Shown one piece after another: positions 19 through 13,596 of a DNA stretch of 13,654 bases. Location of the stretch: NCBI GenBank assembly GCA_020425885.1, contig JAGQRA010000337.1, forward strand, positions 1-13,654. The letters are read 5' to 3'. The notes beneath the pieces were generated by a model. That model saw nothing but the letters and a program-made list of their open reading frames with translations, searched no databases and was not told the origin of the DNA. The DNA is from Planctomycetota bacterium (GTDB lineage Bacteria > Planctomycetota > UBA1135 > UBA2386). A program made the position numbers and the translations under genes. The stretch's first letter is position 1. The number at the start of each line of letters is the position of its first letter.

Positions 19-1809
19 TCAGGCCCGGTCCTGGACGTGCGACAACATGCGGGCGTAGACCCCGTTCTGCGCCACCAGCTGGTCGTGGTTGCCCGACTCC
101 GTGATGCGGCCGTGTTCGAGCACGAGGATCAGGTCGGCCTGGCGCACCGTCGACAGCCGGTGGGCCACGACCAGCGCCGTGCGCCCGCGCAGCGCCGCCG
201 CCAGCGCGCGCTGCAGACGATGCTCGGCCTCGCTGTCGATGCTGGCGGTGGCCTCGTCGAGCAGCAGGACGTCGGGATCGTGGACCAGGGCGCGGGCGAA
301 CGCGATCAGCTGGCGCTCGCCCTGCGACAGGGTCGCGCCGCGCTCCTCGACGGCGGTCAGCAGTCCGTCGGGCAGGCGCTGCACGAAGTCGAGGGCGCCG
401 ACGGTCTGCAGCGCCGCGGTCACGCGCTGTTCGTCGATGGCGGGATCGAAGAGGCGGACGTTGTCGAGGATCGTGCCGGTGAACAGGTACAGGTCCTGGG
501 CGACGAACGCGATGCGCCTGCGCAGCGAGGTGAGTTCGAGGCCGCGCACGTCGTCGCCGTCGACGCGGACGACGCCGCTCTGCGGTTCGCGCAGCCGTGA
601 GACCAGCGACAGCAGCGTCGACTTGCCGGAGCCGGTCGGGCCGACGATGGCGACGGTCTGGCCGGCCGCGGCCCGGAACGAGATGCGATCGAGCACCGGA
701 GTGCCGGCGACGTATTCGAAGGTCACGGCGTCGAAGGCGATGTCCGCCGCGCCGCGCCGCGGCGATGGCCGCGAGTTGCCACCGCCGGGCGGGAACTCGG
801 GTTCGTCGAGGATCTGGAACACGCGCTCGCAGCTGGCGAACGCCGCTTGCAGCACGTTGTACTTCTCGCCGAGCTGCTTGATCGGCGACGTCAGCAGGCC
901 GTAGCAGATCCAGAACTGCACGAACTGACCGGGCGACAGCGTGCCTTCGAGCACGGCCGTGCCGCCGAACCACAGCAGGCCGACCGTGGTCAGGCGCAGG
1001 GCGAGATCGATCAGCGAGAAGAACACCGAGAAGTGCCAGACCGTGGTCCGCCACGACGAGGCGGTGTCGTGGTTGCGGCGGGCGTAGAGGTCGGCGACCG
1101 TGGCCTCGCGGCCGTAGGCGCGGGTCGTGCGGATGCCGCCGATCAGCTCGGTCGCGAAGGCATTCTGCAGGGCGAGGCGGCCGCGCACGGCGCGGTAGGC
1201 CCGTTCGGCATTGCGCCGGAACAGCAGGCTGATCAGCAGCAGCACCGGTGTCGTCGCGATCGTGAACACGGCCAGGCTGTTGTCGAGCCAGAACAGCACG
1301 ACGACGACGCCGAGGATCTTCATCAGGTCGAAGACCGACTGCAGCACGCCCGTCGAGATCAGCTCGTTGAGATTGTCGACGTCGCTGGTGACGCGGGTCG
1401 TCAGCTTGCCGGCAGGGTTGCGCTCGTGGAACCCGAGCCCGGTGCGCATCAGGTGTCGGAACAGGTGACTGCGCACGTCGCGAACGACGCGCTGACCGTT
1501 CCAGGCCGTCCACATGCCGTAGACGTAGCCGAGCCCGGCGCCGCCGGCGGTGGTGGCGAGGAACCCGGCCGCGATCCACAGCAGCTCGCGGATCCGTTCG
1601 GCGTCGGTTGCGCTCGCATCGCGCATCGGGCCGTCGATGGCCAGCCGTACCAGCCACGGCGCCAGCAGCTCGAGCACGAACGAGATCGACAGCAGCAGCA
1701 GGCAGCCGGCGAAGCCGCGGCGGTACGGGCGCACGAAGGGCCACAGCCGGCGCAGGAACTCGAGCTGGAAGCGGGCCTCGGGGGCGTCGTCGAGGTACGG
1801 GTCCTTCAC
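19..1809 (-). CDS. ABC exporter half-transporter, catalytically canonical subunit (membrane domain + ATPase)
   Basis: This 596-residue protein has the fused layout of a type IV ABC exporter. An inner-membrane domain with about six helices (segments near residues 33-55, 76-98, 155-197 and 260-289) is followed by a nucleotide-binding domain from about residue 355. Visible motifs are Walker A GPTGSGKST (390-398), Q-loop Gln438, signature LSQGE (494-498), Walker B VLLLDE (514-519) with catalytic Glu519, and H-loop His550. The signature departs from the usual LSGGQ. The start is GTG at 1809, overlapping the upstream gene's TGA by 4 bases, with a GGGGGAGAG purine tract just before it at 1812-1820, so the two genes are translationally coupled. 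It probably pairs with the product of the upstream gene as a heterodimer. The substrate (drug, lipid or peptide) cannot be told from sequence. Family call is very secure; the heterodimer is inferred. Confidence 0.95.
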   Translation of the reverse strand: MKDPYLDDAPEARFQLEFLRRLWPFVRPYRRGFAGCLLLLSISFVLELLAPWLVRLAIDGPMRDASATDAERIRELLWIAAGFLATTAGGAGLGYVYGMWTAWNGQRVVRDVRSHLFRHLMRTGLGFHERNPAGKLTTRVTSDVDNLNELISTGVLQSVFDLMKILGVVVVLFWLDNSLAVFTIATTPVLLLISLLFRRNAERAYRAVRGRLALQNAFATELIGGIRTTRAYGREATVADLYARRNHDTASSWRTTVWHFSVFFSLIDLALRLTTVGLLWFGGTAVLEGTLSPGQFVQFWICYGLLTSPIKQLGEKYNVLQAAFASCERVFQILDEPEFPPGGGNSRPSPRRGAADIAFDAVTFEYVAGTPVLDRISFRAAAGQTVAIVGPTGSGKSTLLSLVSRLREPQSGVVRVDGDDVRGLELTSLRRRIAFVAQDLYLFTGTILDNVRLFDPAIDEQRVTAALQTVGALDFVQRLPDGLLTAVEERGATLSQGERQLIAFARALVHDPDVLLLDEATASIDSEAEHRLQRALAAALRGRTALVVAHRLSTVRQADLILVLEHGRITESGNHDQLVAQNGVYARMLSHVQDRA

Positions 1810-3674
1810 GGCTCTCCCCCCGGGTCGCTCTCGAGCGTCGCCGCCTCGGTCTGCAGGCGCCAGGCCGTGGCGTAGCGGCCGTCGCCGTGGCGCAGCGACT
1901 CGTGATCGCCCATCGCCTGCACCCTGCCGCCGTCGAGCACCAGGATGAGATCGGCGTCGGCCGTGACCGACAGGCGATGCGAGGCGACGATGACGGTGCG
2001 GCCCCGCCGTTCATTGTCGAGGCCGCGCAGGATGCGGTTCTCGGTGGCGGCGTCGACGGCCGACAACGTGTCGTCGAGCAGCAGCCCCGGGCGATCGCTG
2101 AGCAGCGCGCGCGCCAGCGACACCCGTTGCTTCTGGCCGCCCGACAGCGTCACGCCGCGTTCGCCGACCAGGGTCTCGAGGCCGGCATGCAGCTGCGGCA
2201 GGTCCTGATCGAGCGCGGCGGCTTCGACGGCGAGGTCGACCAGATCGGGCCCGGCATCGCTGCGACCGAAGACGACGTTGTTCGCGACCGAGTCGCTGAA
2301 CAGGAACGGCTCCTGCGGCGCCAGCGCGAACAGGGCGCGCACGCTGGCCGGCGCCAGGTCGAGGATGTCGTGGTCGTCGATGAAGATCGTGCCGCGCGGT
2401 GGATCGTAGAGCCGCAGCAGCAGCGCCAGCAGCGTCGACTTGCCGCTGCCGACGGCGCCGACGAGGCCGAGCTTCTGGCCGGGCTCGAGCGCGAACGTCA
2501 CGCTCTGCAGGGCGGGGCGGTCGGCGTTCGGGTAGCTGAACGTCAGATCGCGGACCCGCAGCTGGCCGCGAAGCGGTGGGGTCGCGCCGCCTCTGGGTTC
2601 GGGCTCGACCTCGAACAGCTCGGCGATGCGCACGGCCGCGGCGTGGGCGCGGGGCATCATCGCCAGCACCCAGCCCAGGATCTCGAGCGGGAACAACATC
2701 AGGGCGAGGTAGCCCATGAACTGGAACAGCTGCCCGATCGTGATCGCACCGCCGATGACCTCGTAGCCGCCGACCGTGAGCACGGCCAGGGTGATCGCGC
2801 CGCCGGTGGTGTGGACCAACGCGTTGAGCAGCGAGCGCAGGCGCACGAGGCGCAGGTTGGCGAGCAGGAAGCGACGGTTGCGGGTCGCCATCGCGGCGCA
2901 CTCGCGTTCGCCCTTGGCGAACTGATGGACGACGCGGATGCCGGCGAAGTCCTCCTGCGCCTGCTGCGAGATCTTGCCGATCGCCTCCTGCGACTTCTTG
3001 CTCCAGCCGTGGAGCCTTGGCATCACGGCGCGGAAGACCGCCATCAGCAGCCCGAAAACCGCGATCGCCGACAGCGTCACCGGCACGTTCATCCCGGCCA
3101 TCAGCCAGAGGCCTGCCGGCAGCAGGCAGATCGTGGTGCCGCCGTGCAACAGCAACGGGCCCATGACGAAGCGGACCAGCTCGACGTCCTGGGTCAGGCG
3201 GCTACAGATGTCGCCGGTGCGCGAGCGATCGAACCAGTGCACGGGCAGCTTCTGCAGGTGCAGGACGAGGTCGTTCTTCAGCGTCTCCTCGACGCGGCGC
3301 GAGGCGTCGATCAGCAGCAGGCGGGCGACGAACCGACTCGCGGCCTCGGCGAGCGCGAGCGCGAGCAGCAGGTAGCAGGCCGAGCGCAGGCCGAGGGCGC
3401 GGTCGGCATCGGTGTCGGTCGCGCCGGTGCCGCCGAGCAGATCGAGGGTCTGGCCGAGCAGCGCCGGCATCCAGAGCGTGATCGCGGCGTGCACCGGCAG
3501 CAGCAGGGCGCCGAGCAGGACTATGCCGCGATGGCGCCAGAGCAGGCGCAGCGGGCGGCCGAAGGCGCGGCGGATGGATCGGAGCACGGACACCGGGGCA
3601 GCATCACGGCGCGGCCGGGTTGATGCAAACCTCGGCAGCGTCTCGTTTCGGGACCTCGGCGGGATCGACACCAT
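1806..3674 (-). CDS. ABC exporter half-transporter, subunit with degenerate Walker B (Asp for Glu)
   Basis: This 622-residue protein has a membrane domain of about six helices (roughly residues 48-345) followed by an ATPase domain. Motifs are Walker A GAVGSGKST (406-414), Q-loop Gln454, perfect signature LSGGQ (510-514), Walker B ending LLLDD (531-535) and H-loop His566. Residue 535 is Asp where a catalytic Glu is expected. In heterodimeric exporters such as TM287/288 and BmrC/BmrD one subunit carries this change and its ATP site is nearly inactive. Here that site would be completed by the partner's atypical LSQGE, as the known asymmetric arrangement predicts. The chosen ATG at 3674 has no clear Shine-Dalgarno and gives about 28 basic, unstructured residues before homology begins. 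A GTG at 3593 (starting VSVLRSIRR) is an alternative start. It is the first gene of a two-gene operon and is divergent from the prepilin genes. Confidence 0.94.
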   Translation of the reverse strand: MVSIPPRSRNETLPRFASTRPRRDAAPVSVLRSIRRAFGRPLRLLWRHRGIVLLGALLLPVHAAITLWMPALLGQTLDLLGGTGATDTDADRALGLRSACYLLLALALAEAASRFVARLLLIDASRRVEETLKNDLVLHLQKLPVHWFDRSRTGDICSRLTQDVELVRFVMGPLLLHGGTTICLLPAGLWLMAGMNVPVTLSAIAVFGLLMAVFRAVMPRLHGWSKKSQEAIGKISQQAQEDFAGIRVVHQFAKGERECAAMATRNRRFLLANLRLVRLRSLLNALVHTTGGAITLAVLTVGGYEVIGGAITIGQLFQFMGYLALMLFPLEILGWVLAMMPRAHAAAVRIAELFEVEPEPRGGATPPLRGQLRVRDLTFSYPNADRPALQSVTFALEPGQKLGLVGAVGSGKSTLLALLLRLYDPPRGTIFIDDHDILDLAPASVRALFALAPQEPFLFSDSVANNVVFGRSDAGPDLVDLAVEAAALDQDLPQLHAGLETLVGERGVTLSGGQKQRVSLARALLSDRPGLLLDDTLSAVDAATENRILRGLDNERRGRTVIVASHRLSVTADADLILVLDGGRVQAMGDHESLRHGDGRYATAWRLQTEAATLESDPGGEP

Positions 3675-3745
3675 CAGGTCAGGGCCGAATGTCGATAGAC
3701 GCCGAGCATGACGACCAGGCCGAACCCCGTCAGGAGAGACTGACC
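3675..3745. promoter_or_regulatory. Divergent intergenic region between ABC operon and prepilin operon
   Basis: Only 71 bases separate the ATG of the leftward ABC gene from the ATG of the rightward giant prepilin gene, so both promoters must lie here or overlap the coding ends. A strong Shine-Dalgarno AGGAGAG sits at 3732-3738, seven bases before the prepilin ATG, and fixes that start. The short dyad GTC-GATA-GAC lies at 3691-3700. I do not see a convincing -35/-10 pair in either direction. TCGACA at 3665-3670 resembles a -35 box but has no good partner at 17 bases. Confidence 0.5.
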
Positions 3746-6700
3746 ATGTACGATTCTCGCGCCCGGAAGGAGGCAGGTTTCACGTTCGCCGAGCTGGCAT
3801 TCGCCATGTTGATCCTGGTGATCGGGGCCGCCGTCCTGATCAACCACCTCGCGATCAACTACAACACGACGAGCACCGAGCGGGATCGCGTCTTCGCCTA
3901 CTCGAAGGCGCAGGCGATCCTGTCGGAGATCCAGGGCTTCGTCGATCGCGGCGGCGTCGAGGCCGCGGTCGAGCTCGACGTCCTCGACGACGGCGTCGTG
4001 AACAAGAACCCGCTCACGATCGCCACCGACGACCTCGGCAACCTCGTCCTGCCGGACCATGTCCTGTCCGGCAACTACCAGCGCGACGGCCAGTGGGTCT
4101 GGTCGCGGCGCATCTCGGTGCAGCCGTTCTCCGGGGTGGTCAATCGCAACGTGCGCTACGTCACGGTCCGCATCTACCGGCGCGGCACCGATGGCGTCGA
4201 GCGCACGATGGCCGACCTCTCGGCCGTCATCAACTCCTCGGCCAGCGCCTACCCGACGACGCAGGTGTTCGACGTCTACCTGCTCGCGATCGAGAACATC
4301 CCGGGCTGGTGGGTCTACATGGACACCATGCGGCCGTTCGTCGAGTCGATGATCACCGACCTCGAGAGCCGCAACCCGGGGCTCGAGTTCAGGACCCATT
4401 GGATCACCAAGGCCAGCTTCGGCCGCAACGAGGGTTATCGGCCCTACGTCAACGACGCCGTCGACAGCAATGCGTCGATCCCCGACGTCTACCACTACCC
4501 GGGGAAGATGCCGGCCGGCGAGGCTTCGATCTACTACTACGTGCCCGACAGCATCAAGGCGCACATCAACCTCGATGGTGCGGACACGAACGGCTACGAC
4601 GCCGATCTCAACCCGCATCCGTACGCGCTGGCCGACTACTTCAACCACGCCATGCGCTATCCGGACGAGCTGGAGCTGTGGCAGCAGCGGGTCAAGGCGA
4701 TCACCGATCGGGAAGAGGAGATCGCGATCGCCGTCGCCGGCGGTACCGCGCCGCCGCCGGAGTTCACCGACATGTCGAAGGAGCCGACCTTGCGGCTCTT
4801 GCTCGAAGGCATGTACTCCGACTCGGACGAGTACCGCAACGCGTTGGTCATCAACCTGCACGGCGAGCTGTTGCCGATGCCCGCGCTGCGCAACTACAGC
4901 GACGCGGCACGGACTTCTTCGCTGCCCCACGTCCGTTGTGTCACCCATCCGGAGGAACTGCGCACGGCGCGCGACGCCGCCAGCCCGGGTTCGAGCGATT
5001 CGGTCGTGCTGCGGATGTACGCCTACAACGACGACACCCAGACCTACACCGGACCCGACCGCATGTCGGGCAGCAACTTCATGACGGTCGAGATCATGGA
5101 CATGGATCTCACCGAGCCGGGATCGACCGGGTTGCTGAAGTCCTCGGCCCGGTTGTTCAACGTGCCCGGCGGCGTACCGGTGGCCGGCAACTCGGACTAC
5201 AGCACGACGTGGCTACCGGCGACGCCATGGATCACGAGCACGAATCGCGCCGAGGAGATGTGGTACTACGCCTATCTCTCCTACTCCTCTGACGGCCACT
5301 ACATGACCCGCATCCTGCTGGCCAACACGCCAGTCGTGTGCCCGCTGCAGACCACCGCCGGCCCGGCCCAGTACTGTGGCCTGGCCAACACCGAGCGCGC
5401 GCAGCTCTACCAGATGCCGTACGTGCCGAGTCCGGTCGAGACGCTGCGCAACTTCAGCCACGACCTGACCTACCCCGATGCCAGCGGGCCGAAGAACACC
5501 GCGCGCTGGAAGCTCTACATCGACGGCGTGGCGCTGACCGACGACTCGTTCCTCGACGGGGCCTTCCACCGCTACAGCCCGTCGGGCGATGTCCGGCTCG
5601 AGGTGCGAACCCGGATCTGGTCGGGATCGAATCCGCCCAACACGGGCACGATGTGGCCGCCCGCGAGCCGCAACGAACCCGACAACCTGTCCGTGACCTA
5701 CACCTGGTGGGCAGACAGCATCGAGGACGTGCCGATCACCGAGCGGGCGCAGTTCAACGGCGACCCGCGTCACCTGCCCTACAAGGACTGCTTCAACAAC
5801 GATCCGGACTTCCCCAACGCCTACAACTGGTATCACAACGACCTCAACGACGGCTCGACGTTCGGCGTGACCGACTACGCCGGCATCGATCCGACCCGGC
5901 TGCGTGACCGTTGGAACGGCGCCATGTGCTGTGACGTGCCGCGCTACATGGAATTGCTGCGCAAGGGACTGGCTAAGAGCGCGTGCGTCTACACCACCCT
6001 GACCGGTTACTCGTACTACTACCTCGGCATCGGCAACGACATCGGCTACGACAGCGCCAACGGCTACCCGAACTCGATCCCGAGCAATCTCCAGCCGCAC
6101 GGCACCTCGGGCACCGGCTACCTCAACACGATCACGGGCTCGCGTCGACTCGTGCGCGAGAGCGGCTCGAACTACTGGTGGGGCATGCCCTGGCTGGGCG
6201 AGCTGTATCCCGACACTGCCGTGGCGACGTGGAACGTCGACTCGGGCGGCGGGATGCGCGGCAATCTGAACCCGGGGACCGGCAGTGGCCAGTTCTACCA
6301 GAGCCCCGCGGAGACGGTTTACGCCGGCAGCAACCGCAAGGCCTACGGGACGGTGCTCCAGTCCCACACCCAGCGCACGTCGACCCGCGGCTGCATCACC
6401 TTCTTCAACACCGGCTCGTCGGGCTCGACCTTCGATCACATCCCGACGAGCGGCAACGGCACCCTGACGTCGGTCGGCAGCGAGCTGGCGACCAACTACA
6501 ACCTCGACATGCCGGCGACGACGCCGGTCAGTCGCCCGTTCTCGCTGACCGACAACGCCACTCCGGCCGAGGAATGGAACTACGCGCCGTACACGACCCG
6601 ATCGACGACGTCGATGTTCAGGACCTACTTCACCCACGCGTCGGGCATCGGCTCGGGCGTCGTCAAGCTCGTCGAGCCCGGCAGCGGCTCCGCGAGCTAC

Positions 6701-7240
6701 GTCGTCGTCAACGGCATCGACAAGACGGTGACCTCGGGGACCGCGTTCATCGCCAAGTGGTCGATGCTGACCCTGGCCCACACCTTCTTCGAGGCGGGTG
6801 ACCTGTCCAACACGCTGCGCATCAAGCAGCAGCCGCGCGTCGAGATCGAGTATCCCAACGACATCTCCGAGCTGATCGACCCGGCGTCGATCGACATCCA
6901 GTACGACATCGATTGGACTCGCTGGGACGGGTTGCCCTACACCTCGACCGGGTCGTTCACGGAAGACGAGTCGGAACTCGAGTACGTCATCATGTACTCA
7001 CGGGACGGCGGCCGGAACTGGCTCCACGTCCAGGATGGTGCGGCGGCGACGCCGGGCGAGCGGCCGACGGATTCCGGCCACATCGAGTCGGATCTGAGCA
7101 TCGGTGCCGAGACCTACACCTGGCCGGTGCCGTCGTCGACCTTCCCGGCCGGCGGCTACCACCTCCGCATCGACTGCTACCGCCAGGGCGCCAAGGTGCA
7201 CTACGCCTATCACCGAACCCAGATCTACATCCAACGATGA
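3746..7240 (+). CDS. Giant prepilin-type protein (1164 aa), probable pilus or secretion-fibre tip/adhesin subunit
   Basis: The N-terminus is a textbook type IV prepilin signal. An 11-residue leader with Arg5, Arg7 and Lys8 ends in Gly11, and the cleavage site is G11^FTFAE with Glu at +5 (Glu16). A hydrophobic helix follows (about 12-34). A PilD-type peptidase should cut it and methylate Phe12. The remaining ~1130 residues have no family I can name. They are unusually rich in Tyr, Trp, Asn, Ser, Thr and Gly (clusters such as IYYYVP and YSYYYLG) and contain nine cysteines (398, 532, 544, 682, 728, 729, 747, 883, 1144). The last ~135 residues look like an Ig/Fn3-like or KNH-type beta-sandwich (YSRDGGRNW near 1084-1092, WPVP then GGYHLRI near 1126-1142). 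Ordinary pilins are 120-250 residues. An exported, fibre-tip or adhesin role is inferred. The start is fixed by AGGAGAG at 3732-3738, which excludes an in-frame extension to 3620. It is coupled by a 4-base overlap to the next gene. Confidence 0.93.
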   Translation: MYDSRARKEAGFTFAELAFAMLILVIGAAVLINHLAINYNTTSTERDRVFAYSKAQAILSEIQGFVDRGGVEAAVELDVLDDGVVNKNPLTIATDDLGNLVLPDHVLSGNYQRDGQWVWSRRISVQPFSGVVNRNVRYVTVRIYRRGTDGVERTMADLSAVINSSASAYPTTQVFDVYLLAIENIPGWWVYMDTMRPFVESMITDLESRNPGLEFRTHWITKASFGRNEGYRPYVNDAVDSNASIPDVYHYPGKMPAGEASIYYYVPDSIKAHINLDGADTNGYDADLNPHPYALADYFNHAMRYPDELELWQQRVKAITDREEEIAIAVAGGTAPPPEFTDMSKEPTLRLLLEGMYSDSDEYRNALVINLHGELLPMPALRNYSDAARTSSLPHVRCVTHPEELRTARDAASPGSSDSVVLRMYAYNDDTQTYTGPDRMSGSNFMTVEIMDMDLTEPGSTGLLKSSARLFNVPGGVPVAGNSDYSTTWLPATPWITSTNRAEEMWYYAYLSYSSDGHYMTRILLANTPVVCPLQTTAGPAQYCGLANTERAQLYQMPYVPSPVETLRNFSHDLTYPDASGPKNTARWKLYIDGVALTDDSFLDGAFHRYSPSGDVRLEVRTRIWSGSNPPNTGTMWPPASRNEPDNLSVTYTWWADSIEDVPITERAQFNGDPRHLPYKDCFNNDPDFPNAYNWYHNDLNDGSTFGVTDYAGIDPTRLRDRWNGAMCCDVPRYMELLRKGLAKSACVYTTLTGYSYYYLGIGNDIGYDSANGYPNSIPSNLQPHGTSGTGYLNTITGSRRLVRESGSNYWWGMPWLGELYPDTAVATWNVDSGGGMRGNLNPGTGSGQFYQSPAETVYAGSNRKAYGTVLQSHTQRTSTRGCITFFNTGSSGSTFDHIPTSGNGTLTSVGSELATNYNLDMPATTPVSRPFSLTDNATPAEEWNYAPYTTRSTTSMFRTYFTHASGIGSGVVKLVEPGSGSASYVVVNGIDKTVTSGTAFIAKWSMLTLAHTFFEAGDLSNTLRIKQQPRVEIEYPNDISELIDPASIDIQYDIDWTRWDGLPYTSTGSFTEDESELEYVIMYSRDGGRNWLHVQDGAAATPGERPTDSGHIESDLSIGAETYTWPVPSSTFPAGGYHLRIDCYRQGAKVHYAYHRTQIYIQR

Positions 7241-8310
7241 ACTCCCGACCTGCTCGTGATCCTCGGCCCACGTCCGCGTCCCGGCACGCCGCCGACGCCG
7301 GCTTCACCTTGGTCGAGGTCGTCATCTCGGCCTCGCTGTTGATCGCGATGCTGTACGCGGTCTCGACGCTCTCGTTGTCCGGTGCCCAGGCGGCCGACCT
7401 GTCGCGCCGGCTGACGCGGGCTTCGGAGGTGACCCAGGAGATCGTCGACGACATGCGCCTCGAGCTGACCTCATCGGTGCGACTGTTCGGCAACGACACC
7501 GAAGGCATCGAGTGCATGCAGCGCTTCGACATCTCGGGGGGGCCGCCGCCCCTCGGTTCGCTGCGATTGCCGACGATCGACAGCGGCGGGTCGGTGCGCG
7601 CGGATACTCCCGGCGACGAGATCACCGGCAACGTGCTGATCTTCGCCAAGCTGGCCTGGACGGATCGCTTCGTCTGCACGAGCTCGGCCGAGTACCTCGT
7701 CGATGTCACCCGCTGGGTGGGCTACTACCTGACGCCGGAAGCCGGCGGGCCGATGGAGGGGCGACCGACCGGGCTCAATCTCGTCCGTGTCCTCAGCGAG
7801 CCCCTCATCGATGCGGCCGGGATCGACAGCATCACGGACTCCACGGATCAGGCCGAGTTCCTGTTGCATCTCCTCAACGCGACTCCTGACGCGCAGGGCG
7901 TGAGGCACGCGCCGTGCGAGATCGTCTGGCAGCGCGGGGCCCTGCCGTCGACCGTGGGGACGTTTCGTCAGATCGACCCGACGAACGGCTCGCTCAGCTT
8001 CACGCCGATCCTCGCCACCGGCCGCGCCGATCCGTTCGCGGTCGAGCGAGCCGAGCCGGATCTCACCGGCATCCTCTATTACCGCCACCACTCGGTGGCG
8101 ACGAATTACTCACAGCCGAGCTACGGTGTCGGCGCGTTCGCCGTGATGGACAGCGCCGGCGACGGCTTCCCACACGGCTTCGAGGTCCAGATCGCCGGCC
8201 CGAGTTCGGCGCGGCAGGTGTTGCTTCACCTGGTCGTAACCAGCACCAACGGCACCGGCCACCTGGCCTGGAGCAACGTGCAGGTCCTCGTCGACGCCAG
8301 GGACATCTGA
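7237..8310 (+). CDS. Prepilin-type N-terminal cleavage/methylation protein (minor pilin or pseudopilin-like, 357 aa)
   Basis: This second prepilin starts with an ATG that overlaps the TGA of the giant prepilin (ATGA at 7237-7240). It lacks its own clear Shine-Dalgarno, so it is probably translated by coupling. The leader is longer (22 residues, with five Arg) and is followed by G22^FTLVE with Glu27 at +5, then a hydrophobic helix to about residue 48. The Leu/Ser/Gln-rich amphipathic continuation is typical of a pilin alpha1 stalk. The C-terminal ~310 residues are a mixed beta-rich globular domain. It has three cysteines and a late strand-rich stretch (QVLLHLVVTSTNG) reminiscent of GspJ-like minor pseudopilins, but I cannot assign a specific family. 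It probably forms a complex with the upstream giant at the tip of a fibre. Assembly ATPase, PilD and secretin are not in the window. A run of seven G at 7536-7542 lies in the coding sequence. Confidence 0.92.
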   Translation: MNSRPARDPRPTSASRHAADAGFTLVEVVISASLLIAMLYAVSTLSLSGAQAADLSRRLTRASEVTQEIVDDMRLELTSSVRLFGNDTEGIECMQRFDISGGPPPLGSLRLPTIDSGGSVRADTPGDEITGNVLIFAKLAWTDRFVCTSSAEYLVDVTRWVGYYLTPEAGGPMEGRPTGLNLVRVLSEPLIDAAGIDSITDSTDQAEFLLHLLNATPDAQGVRHAPCEIVWQRGALPSTVGTFRQIDPTNGSLSFTPILATGRADPFAVERAEPDLTGILYYRHHSVATNYSQPSYGVGAFAVMDSAGDGFPHGFEVQIAGPSSARQVLLHLVVTSTNGTGHLAWSNVQVLVDARDI

Positions 8311-8387: not shown

Positions 8388-8416
8388 TTGCAAACCCGGG
8401 CACCGCTTCCTACCAT
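8388..8416 (+). promoter_or_regulatory. Candidate sigma70-type promoter for rpoZ
   Basis: TTGCAA at 8388-8393 (4/6 to TTGACA) is separated by exactly 17 bases from TACCAT at 8411-8416 (4/6 to TATAAT). Transcription would begin near 8423, giving a ~50-base leader before the ATG at 8474. The spacing and position in a 163-base gap support it. The two boxes are imperfect and the match could occur by chance. Confidence 0.4.
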
Positions 8417-8473
8417 GCTTCGCCCTTCTGGGCCCGAGTGGCCCTGCCACCCCATTTCGACGCCGGCTTCCAC

Positions 8474-8695
8474 ATGGAACAGAGTCTTCCGCAGGAATTG
8501 GTCAAACAGGTCTCCGGTTCGTTCCGCCTGACCGCCCTGCTGCAGAAGCGCGTGCGCGAACTCGTCCGCGGCCAGAAGCCGTTGTTCGAGACCCGCGAGC
8601 GTAACTACATCAAGATCGCCAGCGAAGAGCTGAAGCGAGGCCTGATCGAGCTCGTCCCCGACGAGGACCAGGCCGATCCGACCCACGTGCTCTGA
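8474..8695 (+). CDS. rpoZ: DNA-directed RNA polymerase omega subunit-like protein (73 aa)
   Basis: Omega is a small accessory subunit that clamps the C-terminus of beta-prime and aids RNA polymerase assembly. The 73-residue product fits that size. It shows the expected pattern of a Gly-x-Phe-Arg-Leu-Thr-x-Leu-hydrophobic-Gln-Lys-Arg helix (15-27), then VRGQKPLFE (31-39) and a helical tail NYIKIASEELKRGLIEL (44-60), close to the 'RF.L....KR...L..G..P.......K....A..E...G.I' layout of omega. The acidic end (DEDQAD) is variable in the family. The start is ATG 8474; no Shine-Dalgarno is visible, and upstream extension in frame to 8378 gives unconvincing sequence. It is not next to gmk, its partner in many bacteria. 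The similarity is judged by eye and the subunit is divergent, so a distant omega-like protein is possible. Confidence 0.8.
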   Translation: MEQSLPQELVKQVSGSFRLTALLQKRVRELVRGQKPLFETRERNYIKIASEELKRGLIELVPDEDQADPTHVL

Positions 8696-8780: not shown

Positions 8781-10526
8781 TCAGTCCAGCTTGGCGCGTC
8801 GTTCGCGTTCGACCCGGGTGATGAGTTCGAGCAGCTCCGCCGGGGCTTCCGCCGTGCCCAGGATCTTGCTGCCGACGGCGACGAAGGCGCATTCCCTGTC
8901 GCCGTACTGCAGGCCGCTGCGGCCGAGCAGGATCGGGTCCCGTTTCGGGTCGAGGGTCTGCACGATGCGCGACGGCACGTAGCTGGCGAGTGCCGCGCGG
9001 CGCAGTGCGGCCGACGCCTCGCTGTCGCGGTCGCCGATGATGGTGACGAACAGCGGCTCGTAGAACACCAGGTCGATGGCGCGGCCGTAGCCGGCGACGT
9101 AGTAGCCGTACTCGCGATAGTCGCTGGCGAAGGACTCGAGCGCACTCACCGCCTCGGTGAAGAGTTCGGGTCGCCGTGACAGGTACGACAGCCGCACGAG
9201 GGACTCGGCCATCGTGGCGTTGTCGAGGATCGAACGATTGCGGCGCCGCATCGACCCGTGCTGCTCGGGCTGGTGCAGGATGTCGTAGAAGCCGCCGGTC
9301 TTCGACTTCTGCTGCGCGATGACGCGGTCGGCGATCGCCTCGGCCGGCAGCAGCAGGTCGGCGTCGGCGGTGTTCTGCGAGGCGTCGATCAGCGCGCGGA
9401 TCAGGTAGGCCTGATCGGCGAGCATGCCTGGCAGGTGGTAGGTGCCGTCCCAGTAGTGGTAGACCGCGCGGCCGTCGTAGAGGTTCTCGGTCAGGAAGCG
9501 CAACGTCCCCATGGCGAGGTCGAGCCAATGCGGTTGCGACAGCACCGCGGCGGCCTTGAGCAGGCTCGAGACGGCGACGGCGTTGGCGTTGCAGTAGACC
9601 GTCCGGTCGAGCGCCGGCGGCGAACGGCGGCTGCGGTCGTCGGCGCTGCTCGTGAAGTAGTCCTGGTCGCCGTCCTGGCTGCCCGCGAACGCGCCCGTGT
9701 GCGAGTCGCGCATCGCGGTCAACATCCATTCGACGATGCCCTCGGCGACACGGCGGTAGGCGTCCTTCTCGAACAGCTGGTAGGCCTCGAGGTAGGCGCG
9801 CAGCACCAGCGCGTTCTGATCGAGCAGCTTCTCGTAGTTGGGGGTGTGCCAGTCGGGCGTGCGCGAGAATCGGAAGAAGCCGCCGTCGACATGGTCGTGC
9901 AGGGGGCTCTCCATCATCCGGTCGAGGGTCAGCTCGACGACCTCACGCATGCGCGCATCGCCGCGCTTGCTGACCTGGACGAGGGCGAAGTCGAGGGCCT
10001 CCGGGTGGGGAAACTTGCTGCCCTCGCCGAAGCCGCCGTGACGGTGGTCGAGCTTCTCGTAGATCGCATCGACGACGTCGTCGGTCATCTGGCGGCGCAG
10101 CTTGCCGCCGTCGGCGCGGGAGCGCTCGGTCGCGCTTGCCCACAGTTGCTGCAGGTTCTGCCGGATGTCCTGCTTGCGCTCACGCCAAGCCGTCCGCACG
10201 CGCTCGAGCTGCGCGCCGAGCTGGTCGGCGTCGAGGAAGTTCGTGTGCGTGATCAGCTCGCCGTCCGGCGTCAGCCATGCGATCGTCGGCCAACCGCCGG
10301 TGCCGTAGCGTTGGTTGACGTCGGGGCGGCGTTCGGCGTCGATGTGGACGGGCAGGAAATCCGCTTCGACAATGGCCTGCACGTGCGGATCGGCGAAGCT
10401 CGTCGTCATCAGCTCGCGGCAGTGCTGGCACCAGGGCACGGTGATCACCATCAGCACAGGGCGATCGTCGGCAGCGGCGGCCTGCAGGGTCGCCGAGTCG
10501 AAGTGCTGCCAGCGGATGTCCGTCAT
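8781..10526 (-). CDS. Thioredoxin-fold / six-hairpin (YyaL, SSP411, DUF255-type) protein, 581 aa
   Basis: The first ~115 residues form a thioredoxin-like domain with a CQHC redox motif (33-36, in PWCQHC) and the cis-proline element GGWP (77-80), followed by LTPDGE. The rest matches the alpha/alpha-barrel portion of YyaL/SSP411 (spermatogenesis-associated protein 20-like) proteins: GGFGEGSKFPHPEAL (164-178), DGGFFRFSRTPDW (214-226) and NYEKLLDQNALVLRAYLEAYQ (from residue 230). At 581 residues it is shorter than usual (about 650-700). It lacks the SPYLLQHA...NPVDW-type lead-in and the CHWC site of typical members. The biochemical role of the family is unresolved. The N-terminal half suggests a thiol or carrier function, and the barrel resembles N-acyl-glucosamine epimerase or glycosidase folds. 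No signal peptide is seen, so it is probably cytoplasmic. The start ATG at 10526 has a weak AGAAG upstream. Confidence 0.85.
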   Translation of the reverse strand: MTDIRWQHFDSATLQAAAADDRPVLMVITVPWCQHCRELMTTSFADPHVQAIVEADFLPVHIDAERRPDVNQRYGTGGWPTIAWLTPDGELITHTNFLDADQLGAQLERVRTAWRERKQDIRQNLQQLWASATERSRADGGKLRRQMTDDVVDAIYEKLDHRHGGFGEGSKFPHPEALDFALVQVSKRGDARMREVVELTLDRMMESPLHDHVDGGFFRFSRTPDWHTPNYEKLLDQNALVLRAYLEAYQLFEKDAYRRVAEGIVEWMLTAMRDSHTGAFAGSQDGDQDYFTSSADDRSRRSPPALDRTVYCNANAVAVSSLLKAAAVLSQPHWLDLAMGTLRFLTENLYDGRAVYHYWDGTYHLPGMLADQAYLIRALIDASQNTADADLLLPAEAIADRVIAQQKSKTGGFYDILHQPEQHGSMRRRNRSILDNATMAESLVRLSYLSRRPELFTEAVSALESFASDYREYGYYVAGYGRAIDLVFYEPLFVTIIGDRDSEASAALRRAALASYVPSRIVQTLDPKRDPILLGRSGLQYGDRECAFVAVGSKILGTAEAPAELLELITRVERERRAKLD

Positions 10527-10558
10527 GAGGCTTCTGTGATCGGTTGCCGAGGGGGCCT

Positions 10559-10574
10559 GTCGACTATCGTCGAC
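10559..10574. promoter_or_regulatory. Perfect short dyad (GTCGAC-TATC-GTCGAC), possible operator
   Basis: Arms GTCGAC at 10559-10564 and 10569-10574 are exact inverted repeats around a 4-base spacer, 33 to 48 bases upstream of the thioredoxin-domain gene's ATG. On the minus strand the centre reads GATAGT, a weak -10 resemblance (4/6), but there is no matching -35 at 17 bases. It could be a regulator site or a chance palindrome, since GTCGAC is itself palindromic and CG-rich. Confidence 0.25.
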
Positions 10575-10653
10575 TGCGCGGTTCGAACTGCAAGGTTCCC
10601 TTCCGAACGGTCGATCCGATGGGGGAGAGGTCGGTTCGGTCCGTCGGAAAGGT

Positions 10654-10674
10654 GGCCGGGCGCCGGGCCCGGCC
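10654..10674 (-). terminator. GC hairpin overlapping the rsfS stop codon
   Basis: GGCCGGG at 10654-10660 and CCCGGCC at 10668-10674 form a 7-base-pair stem around a 7-base loop. The stem includes the last base of the rsfS stop codon (10674-10676, read as TAG on the minus strand). Minus-strand RNA beyond it reads ACCTTTCC, so only a three-base U run follows. It is a plausible weak terminator or attenuator between rsfS and the next gene. GC-rich chance pairing is possible. Confidence 0.4.
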
Positions 10675-11219
10675 TACCGCGGATCGTCCGTCCCCGGTGT
10701 GCTCTCCGGGGCGTTGTCGTCGGCGGAGCCGGCGGGCAGGAACGCGCCGAATCCTTCCAGCGTGGGTTGCCTGATCTCGGTCGCCACCGGCTCGGTGCGG
10801 ACCGCCGCCGTGAACGGCACCCGCGGCACGTCGGCCCACAAGGTCTCGAGGGCGTAGTAGGAGCGCGCTTCGGGTTGGAACAGGTGTACGACGATGTCGT
10901 CGTAGTCGAGCAGCACCCAGTTCGAACCTTCGCCGTCCAGCCCGCCGGCATTGCGCCGCGGCTTGTGGCGTCGCGACTTGGCCTCCATGTCCAGTTCGCG
11001 GGCGAGGGCGATCGCCTGGCGTGGGCTCTGCACCGTTGCGATGACGAAGTAGTCCGCGATGACGAGCGGGCCAGACACGTCGAGGATGGCGATGTCCGTC
11101 GCCTGCTTCTCGTCGAGGCGCTGGGCAATGCTCAGGGCGACCCGGGTGGTGGCCGGGTCGGGAGTCGCGCTGACTTCGGGAACTGGATCAGGACGTGGTT
11201 CGGATGCTGGGGTGGTCAA
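10674..11219 (-). CDS. rsfS: Ribosomal silencing factor RsfS (Iojap/DUF143 family)
   Basis: RsfS binds ribosomal protein uL14 on the large subunit and blocks joining of the small subunit, shutting down translation during starvation. The core is clear: EKQATDIAILDVSG (37-50), ADYFVIATVQSPRQA (55-69), then NWVLLDYDDIVVHLFQ (100-115) and RSYYALETLWAD (119-130), all in family order. The protein is 181 residues, while typical members are 105-130. The surplus is a Pro-rich N-terminal extension (~22 residues) and a Pro/acidic tail (~50 residues) with no recognised domain. The only usable initiator is TTG at 11219: an in-frame stop lies about 40 bases upstream with no ATG or GTG between, and no ATG occurs before the conserved core. 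A weak AGAGAG lies just before it. It is not next to nadD as in many genomes. Confidence 0.93.
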   Translation of the reverse strand: MTTPASEPRPDPVPEVSATPDPATTRVALSIAQRLDEKQATDIAILDVSGPLVIADYFVIATVQSPRQAIALARELDMEAKSRRHKPRRNAGGLDGEGSNWVLLDYDDIVVHLFQPEARSYYALETLWADVPRVPFTAAVRTEPVATEIRQPTLEGFGAFLPAGSADDNAPESTPGTDDPR

Positions 11220-11520
11220 AGCTCTCTGGTGGTTGTCAACGCTCGCTGGGCGCGTGCGTCAAGGATAGCGGCATCGAAGCCGGTGATAAGCCCCTGCCGC
11301 GTGCGGCAGAATCAGAAACCCCGGCCCTTCGCGCGGGAAGACCCGAGAACCGATCGATTCATCGGGTGTTTCGGGGGCGCTGACAACCGCTCCGCGCGGT
11401 TCCTCCCCCGAATCGCCGTTGCCAGCGGCCGGACCGTCCGGCGCGCGCCCCGGCGGGCGGTGGTTCCGCCCGCGGTCGCGCTGCTCGAATGCCTACTAGA
11501 ACAGGGCTACTCGAACAGGG
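11220..11520. other. 301-base intergenic region, hppA 3' side and rsfS 5' side
   Basis: No gene is supported here. From right to left on the minus strand it holds two extra copies of a 14-base tandem repeat immediately after the hppA stop, two GC-rich hairpins (11453-11473 and 11428-11442), a 7-base-arm palindrome at 11294-11309 (CTGCCGC-GT-GCGGCAG), and the leader of rsfS. A TTGACA box occurs on the minus strand about 19 bases upstream of the TTG start, but no -10 element at a workable spacing is visible. The rsfS promoter therefore remains unidentified. Confidence 0.6.
11453..11473 (-). terminator. GC-rich hairpin downstream of hppA, candidate terminator
   Basis: Eight-base-pair all-GC stem: GCGGGCGG at 11453-11460 pairs with CCGCCCGC at 11466-11473 around the loop TGGTT. 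It lies about 48 bases beyond the hppA stop. A second stem, GCCGGA/TCCGGC with loop CCG, follows at 11428-11442. There is no U-tract after either. Position supports a role in ending hppA transcription; strength is uncertain because random pairing is common at this base composition. Confidence 0.4.

Positions 11521-11534
<14 letters not shown>
11493..11534. repeat. Three tandem 14-base repeats spanning the hppA stop codon
   Basis: On the plus strand the units are CTACTAGAACAGGG (11493-11506), CTACTCGAACAGGG (11507-11520) and CTACTTGAAAAGGG (11521-11534). They are perfectly abutted and differ from one another at one or two positions. The third unit contains the last codons and stop of hppA (read on the minus strand); the other two lie just downstream. 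A diverged partial copy may begin at 11481. The pattern is best explained by tandem duplication of the gene's 3' end by replication slippage. Confidence 0.75.

Positions 11535-13596
<2,062 letters not shown>

Follow-up and report, generated by a model that had tools for sequence, protein, structure and literature searches.

The stretch of DNA analysed here (hereafter the window; 13,654 nucleotides of contig JAGQRA010000337.1, Planctomycetota assembly GCA_020425885.1) carries a gene encoding a giant prepilin, P0001, followed directly by a gene for a second prepilin (Table 1); P-numbers otherwise denote relatives of the giant, L-numbers loci, and G-numbers genomes. The giant begins with MYDSRARKEAG^FTFAE, with G11 at position −1, E16 at +5 and a predicted helix spanning residues 14-68, and both residues are invariant across an alignment of 59 rows. 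The complete type IV prepilin signal that a first-pass annotation of this DNA had described on an open reading frame (ORF) of 1164 residues is thus confirmed, as is its count of nine cysteines (residues 398, 532, 544, 682, 728, 729, 747, 883, and 1144). The reported richness in Tyr, Trp and Asn also holds, since these residues make up 6.2%, 2.3% and 5.5% of the mature giant vs. 2.4%, 1.3% and 2.1% of five other window proteins pooled, Tyr and Asn each being more than twice as frequent.

Table 1. Features of the giant prepilin locus and its neighbours, in window coordinates.
Feature	Coordinates	Strand	Basis
Giant prepilin, most likely I-type, 1164 residues	3746..7240	+	Open ORF, ATG start, homologue alignment, predicted structure
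Shine-Dalgarno-like AGGAGA 5' of the giant gene's ATG	3732..3737	+	Read directly
Predicted class III leader peptide, residues 1-11, last residue Gly	3746..3778	+	Sequence; alignment of 59 rows
Pilin module, GspI-like, residues 12-163	3779..4234	+	
Body, residues 168-1026, without recognised family or confident fold	4247..6823	+	Pfam, NCBIfam, structure searches
NLHGE motif, invariant in 59 rows, residues 370-374, after predicted strand 367-370	4853..4867	+	
Beta-sandwich-like region within body, residues 395-658	4928..5719	+	
C-terminal Ig/Fn3-like domain, residues 1027-1164	6824..7237	+	
Second prepilin, J-positioned, 357 residues; start codon overlapping the stop of the giant (ATGA, 7237-7240)	7237..8310	+	
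RNA polymerase omega (RpoZ), neighbour outside the system	8474..8695	+	Pfam PF01192, E 1.3e-6 on 8405-8695; start inferred from ORF listing
Divergent ABC exporter half-transporter, neighbour	1806..3674	-	Pfam ABC_membrane, ABC_tran

About 5.8 billion proteins were searched and 7993 candidates scored, which gave 700 proteins, the query among them, at E ≤ 1e-3; given these relatives and the invariance of G11 and E16, the giant ORF is not a chance frame. Among the matches listed (best 120 of 700), the 119 non-query rows are 54-68% identical to the giant, with a query coverage of at least 98% in all but P0113 (91%), and a further search that used residues 1-700 of L054, a distant relative, as query found 96 proteins of up to 2187 residues. 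Forty-five loci contained a long matching frame, 35 of them including the N-terminus (with two apparent duplicates), and in these the glycine was found in 35/35 and the glutamate in 34/35, L034 having Asp. Among rows that name a taxon, the family occurs in Planctomycetota only: the names given are Planctomycetota, Planctomycetes or 'bacterium', most rows being nameless, and the 25 genome-contig loci L001-L025 are titled Planctomycetota except for two 'bacterium', one 'Singulisphaera' and one 'Planctomycetia'. Distribution was assessed in an evenly drawn sample of 392 Planctomycetota genomes, other phyla being covered only by the contig search that gave the 25 loci. The giant profile matched 33/392 genomes, two of them (G057 and G284) over at most about 65 N-terminal residues, leaving 31 with a giant; copy numbers per genome are lower bounds, because scoring took only the best few candidates per genome. 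Plasmid records searched with the giant gave no match.

The first-pass annotation had found no nameable family for the exported part of the protein, and neither Pfam nor NCBIfam covers the body. In Pfam, the giant matched N_methyl below the cut-off (E 0.017; 15.1 of 21.2 bits) and DUF7502 over 24 residues (E 0.3), with no PilY1/PilC propeller domain at E ≤ 1. DUF1559 prepilins are known from Planctomycetota, and DUF1559 was not among the 17 Pfam families matched at E ≤ 1 in 29 members of the giant family. In NCBIfam, the gspI model matched residues 11-60 (E 0.24) with 11.9 bits vs. the TIGR01707 cut-off of 44.35, so that the giant falls short of the curated threshold for GspI; the same model matched 19/29 relatives at E ≤ 1 (best 4.9e-6). 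In the structural comparison, the best VIA match of the whole predicted model covered residues 12-163 and was to one chain, 116 residues long, of the XcpGHIJK pseudopilus model. A sequence profile compared with solved structures recovered the geopilin N-terminus only (E 0.4). With Foldseek, neither the whole model nor the body alone gave a PDB match at E ≤ 1e-3, the whole model yielding rows for GH158 at E of about 0.005 (probability 0.84-0.97, about 170 columns). Two further sets of rows were put aside: a single row at E ≤ 1e-3 in a viral structure library (3.5e-4, probability 0.25, root-mean-square deviation 37.9) was not used, and the rows of a phmmer search with residues 1-170, namely two designed repeat proteins (E 1.4e-4 and 0.0029, accumulated over numerous weak repeats) and three others with E near 1, were discounted. 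P0001 combines a pilin module with a large, confidently modelled extra part that matches no named domain.

In the 59 rows the commonest residue has a mean frequency of 0.64 in the body and 0.68 in the pilin domain, so the two are about equally conserved, with residues 167-300 as the most conserved stretch (0.76); this counts against a fast-diversifying adhesin. The adhesin role suggested by the first-pass annotation stays hypothetical: the window protein matches no lectin, protease, VWA or PilY1 family in Pfam or NCBIfam, and the conservation of its body is unusual for a fast-evolving adhesin, although in a distant relative, P0192, a ConA-like lectin domain (Laminin_G_3, residues 546-701, E 1.1e-11) is inserted after the equivalent of residue 575. 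The same conservation, with 136/860 body positions holding the same residue in at least 58/59 rows, the NLHGE motif after its strand among them, could indicate that the pilus displays the body as an enzyme, a catalytic module at its tip. Its predicted secondary structure, in which strands alternate with helices around the sandwich-like part, would also fit an enzyme, and modular pilins with predicted peptidase domains are listed in PMC8179133. Among the VIA rows for the body no lectin, protease, VWA or caspase-like fold was conspicuous, although a missing row is no proof. We consider a filament-tip enzyme improbable. The LHGE motif was also considered as caspase-like, an idea dropped because the nearest following cysteine, C398, is Val in 20/22 aligned rows.

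The second prepilin lies directly 3' of the giant in the window and in 25/25 loci (L001-L025; it runs off the contig in L019), and G-1 and E+5 are present in 17/17 aligned sequences. A conserved giant with an adjoining second prepilin had been set beforehand as the test for a new family, and the retention of this neighbour in 25/25 loci, together with the lack of any Pfam or NCBIfam model for the giant, supports the proposal of a new large-prepilin family. A profile of the second prepilin matched 371/392 genomes, because its N-terminus is generic; however, long J-like matches (E ≤ 4.4e-36) were confined to 29 genomes, all within the 31 giant-bearing ones (0/361 others), with that of G257 split over two contigs. 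The best J-like match outside the giant-bearing genomes reached 2.6e-11 over model positions 9-135 of 333. Of the two giant-bearing genomes that lack a long match, G032 had none and G022 an N-terminal one only, although in the latter a prepilin of 482 residues adjoins the giant. This G022 locus (L054, 7-16085; 33% identical relative) comprises in order a K-like gene (507 residues), a giant (2107), the prepilin of 482 residues and a second giant (2115), and the codon composition of its genome is unusual for the giant family.

A third component is a K/PilX-like protein of 408-750 residues as called, which matches no Pfam family over cut-off, lacks Glu5 in 13/13 cases and shows a weak GspK match in 1/13. 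The window itself contains no K-like gene, but in L008, L011 (partial), L012 and L016-L025 it is found directly 5' of the giant, and in L009 nearby on the opposite strand; in the giant-bearing genomes G001, G004, G058 and G129 a K-like gene occurs on a separate contig. The K-like profile matched 34/392 genomes, and once three weak or partial matches (G253, G283 and G350) are removed, the remaining 31 are exactly the 31 giant-bearing genomes, in 27 of which K is the next gene to the giant (exceptions G001, G058, G129 and G386). The giant is thus co-inherited with a further prepilin and a Glu5-less K-like pilin, as in H-I-J-K complexes. In a branch of longer relatives (L016-L025), the giants contain acidic insertions, DxNGNG-type loops that may bind calcium, following residues ~285 and ~488-515. 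The presence of such loops is concordant between giant and K in 12/12 loci (eight with loops in both, four in neither), and the second prepilin has one in 1/17.

The secretion machinery available to these proteins was surveyed in eight giant-bearing genomes. T2SSE-type ATPases were detected in 8/8 and a prepilin peptidase (Peptidase_A24) in 7/8, not being found in G003. In G004, whose giant is 66-68% identical, a distance of 1.0 kb separates the end of the K-like gene from a T2SSF gene, beyond which lie T2SSE and secretin genes. This arrangement, along with the type II pseudopilus model as best match of the N-terminal region and a strong body conservation that would suit a fixed partner, could indicate that the giant is a receptor at the pseudopilus tip of a type II-like secretion machine, its head selecting or pushing a lineage-specific substrate within the periplasm or secretin vestibule, with no outside contact. 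However, the G004 genes are convergent and form no single operon, and in G001 and G129 the contigs that carry K have no T2SSE match; as a single genome supports it, the link to secretin, GspE and GspF is weak. In addition, gspI-profile matches outside the giant set occur in 8/8 genomes, none over the cut-off and some further rows being giants or second prepilins, and on a contig of G002 other than the giant's there is what looks like an ordinary gspF-G-H-I-J run, its GspI having 149 residues (names except I assigned by eye), so that the giant set is additional to a standard set at least in G002. A secretion receptor is therefore considered unlikely.

Taken together, the giant is, with somewhat better than even confidence, a minor (pseudo)pilin of modular build, the I type (GspI/PilI/PilV position) being the most likely, which would act in a tip complex with J and K partners and bind a ligand through its head. 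According to a review (PMC10191384), minor pilins H, I, J and K form a tip complex that is capped by a Glu5-less subunit and from which assembly begins. Likewise, prepilin peptidase would cleave the giant after G11, and residues 12-163, comprising the N-terminal helix and the pilin module, would pack with the J-position prepilin and the Glu5-less K/PilX-like pilin in a tip complex that initiates a type 4 filament. The remaining ~1000 residues, the conserved body and the Ig-like domain, would then hang from the I subunit and be displayed at the tip, all of this on the strength of homology to the H-I-J-K proteins. A ligand bound outside the cell or at its outer surface could lead to ligand capture or to anchoring of the cell, capture being the favoured role of the head, albeit tentatively. 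The tip location put forward by the first-pass annotation is supported only indirectly, by the resemblance of the N-terminal domain to a pseudopilus subunit, probably I, and by co-inherited neighbours at the J and K positions; the giant probably sits at the fibre tip with its two partners. A more specific version, a Planctomycetota-specific type 4 filament in which an I subunit with a giant head of new fold and two partner pilins seize surface macromolecules, apart from the ordinary type II set, appears rather doubtful.

Against a J identity, the N-terminus of the second prepilin is nearest to PilV (9/17 in NCBIfam, best 5.1e-7) vs. gspJ (2/17, best 0.068), so that it is J-like by gene position and its family label is tentative. 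The concordance of loops between giant and K could come from a single clade, and shared ancestry confounds the co-occurrence counts, for which no probability is given for this reason. The former pilin helix could also merely tether a large periplasmic or surface protein that is never assembled, as passage of the longest members through a secretin is hard to picture and the body could function without a filament. However, the glutamate at +5, known in pilins mainly for its role in assembly, is kept in nearly all loci, and the pilin module and two partner genes are conserved together, making an unassembled anchor quite improbable.

The remainder of the window, positions 8781-13596, encodes a DUF255/thioredoxin protein, RsfS and a membrane H+-pyrophosphatase, ordinary neighbours whose order is kept in L014. 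Since L014 retains the whole arrangement (two ABC genes, giant, prepilin, RpoZ, DUF255, RsfS and H-PPase), an origin from a mobile element is unlikely.

Other large pilin-linked proteins offer points of comparison. Verru_Chthon cassette protein A (TIGR02600) is also a large pilin-linked family, although it is not among the NCBIfam matches of P0001 at E ≤ 1. In 31/99 Planctomycetota genomes the model matched ORFs, most of them large, over their N-terminal ~50-80 residues, none over the cut-off. In seven TIGR02600-like regions four ORFs matched the K-like profile N-terminally and none the giant profiles at E ≤ 10, which would make these K-position giants with a different body. The ORFs found in this way (L076-L082) have ~1000-1350 residues, two of the four K-profile matchers being in tandem (L082, 1006-7147). 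Among the 12 giant-bearing of the 99 genomes, TIGR02600 matches occur only in G017 and G066, on contigs other than the giant's, and complementarity between the two types is not established (2/12 genomes with a giant I vs. 29/87 others). The K-type large ORFs in other Planctomycetota genomes, together with the giant-I family, suggest that oversized tip pilins may have arisen more than once in this phylum. PilY1/PilC is likewise a large tip protein acting with minor pilins (PMC10191384 and PMC9934059), but PilY1 is a non-pilin, and the giant matches no PilY1 family in Pfam.

GspI is a small protein of about 120-150 residues, and the I subunit of tip complexes is likewise small. The giant shares with GspI/PilI/PilV of the H-I-J-K complex the signal, the helix, the pilin module, the prepilin gene directly 3' and the Glu5-less K-like partner, whereas at 1164 residues it is several times larger, with ~1000 extra residues past the pilin module, lies below the gspI cut-off, and coexists with other gspI-profile matches in the eight genomes tested. 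The K, giant I and second prepilin genes form a testable three-gene unit, and the family offers a way into how Planctomycetota that have not been cultured encounter surfaces or macromolecules. No title or opening of an abstract on this giant-prepilin family was found in the literature covered, which leaves out most subscription journals and all preprints. A further parallel is Streptococcus sanguinis, in which a small I-like PilA works with PilB and PilC, modular pilins with heads that bind proteins and glycans (PMC8179133 and PMC9934059). Like the giant, these have a bulky head on a pilin module, there modelled at the filament tip, and an Ig-like domain, and one giant relative shares a lectin domain; in S. 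sanguinis, however, the heads are on subunits other than PilA, whereas in the giant set the I-like subunit itself would carry the head, without a named domain. The most extreme modular pilin by number of domains in PMC8179133 is a protein of 860 residues, which the giant exceeds in length. Modular pilins are thus already known, and what the giant family adds is I-like proteins of about 1100-2190 residues, with no Pfam or NCBIfam model past the pilin signal and with two co-inherited partners.
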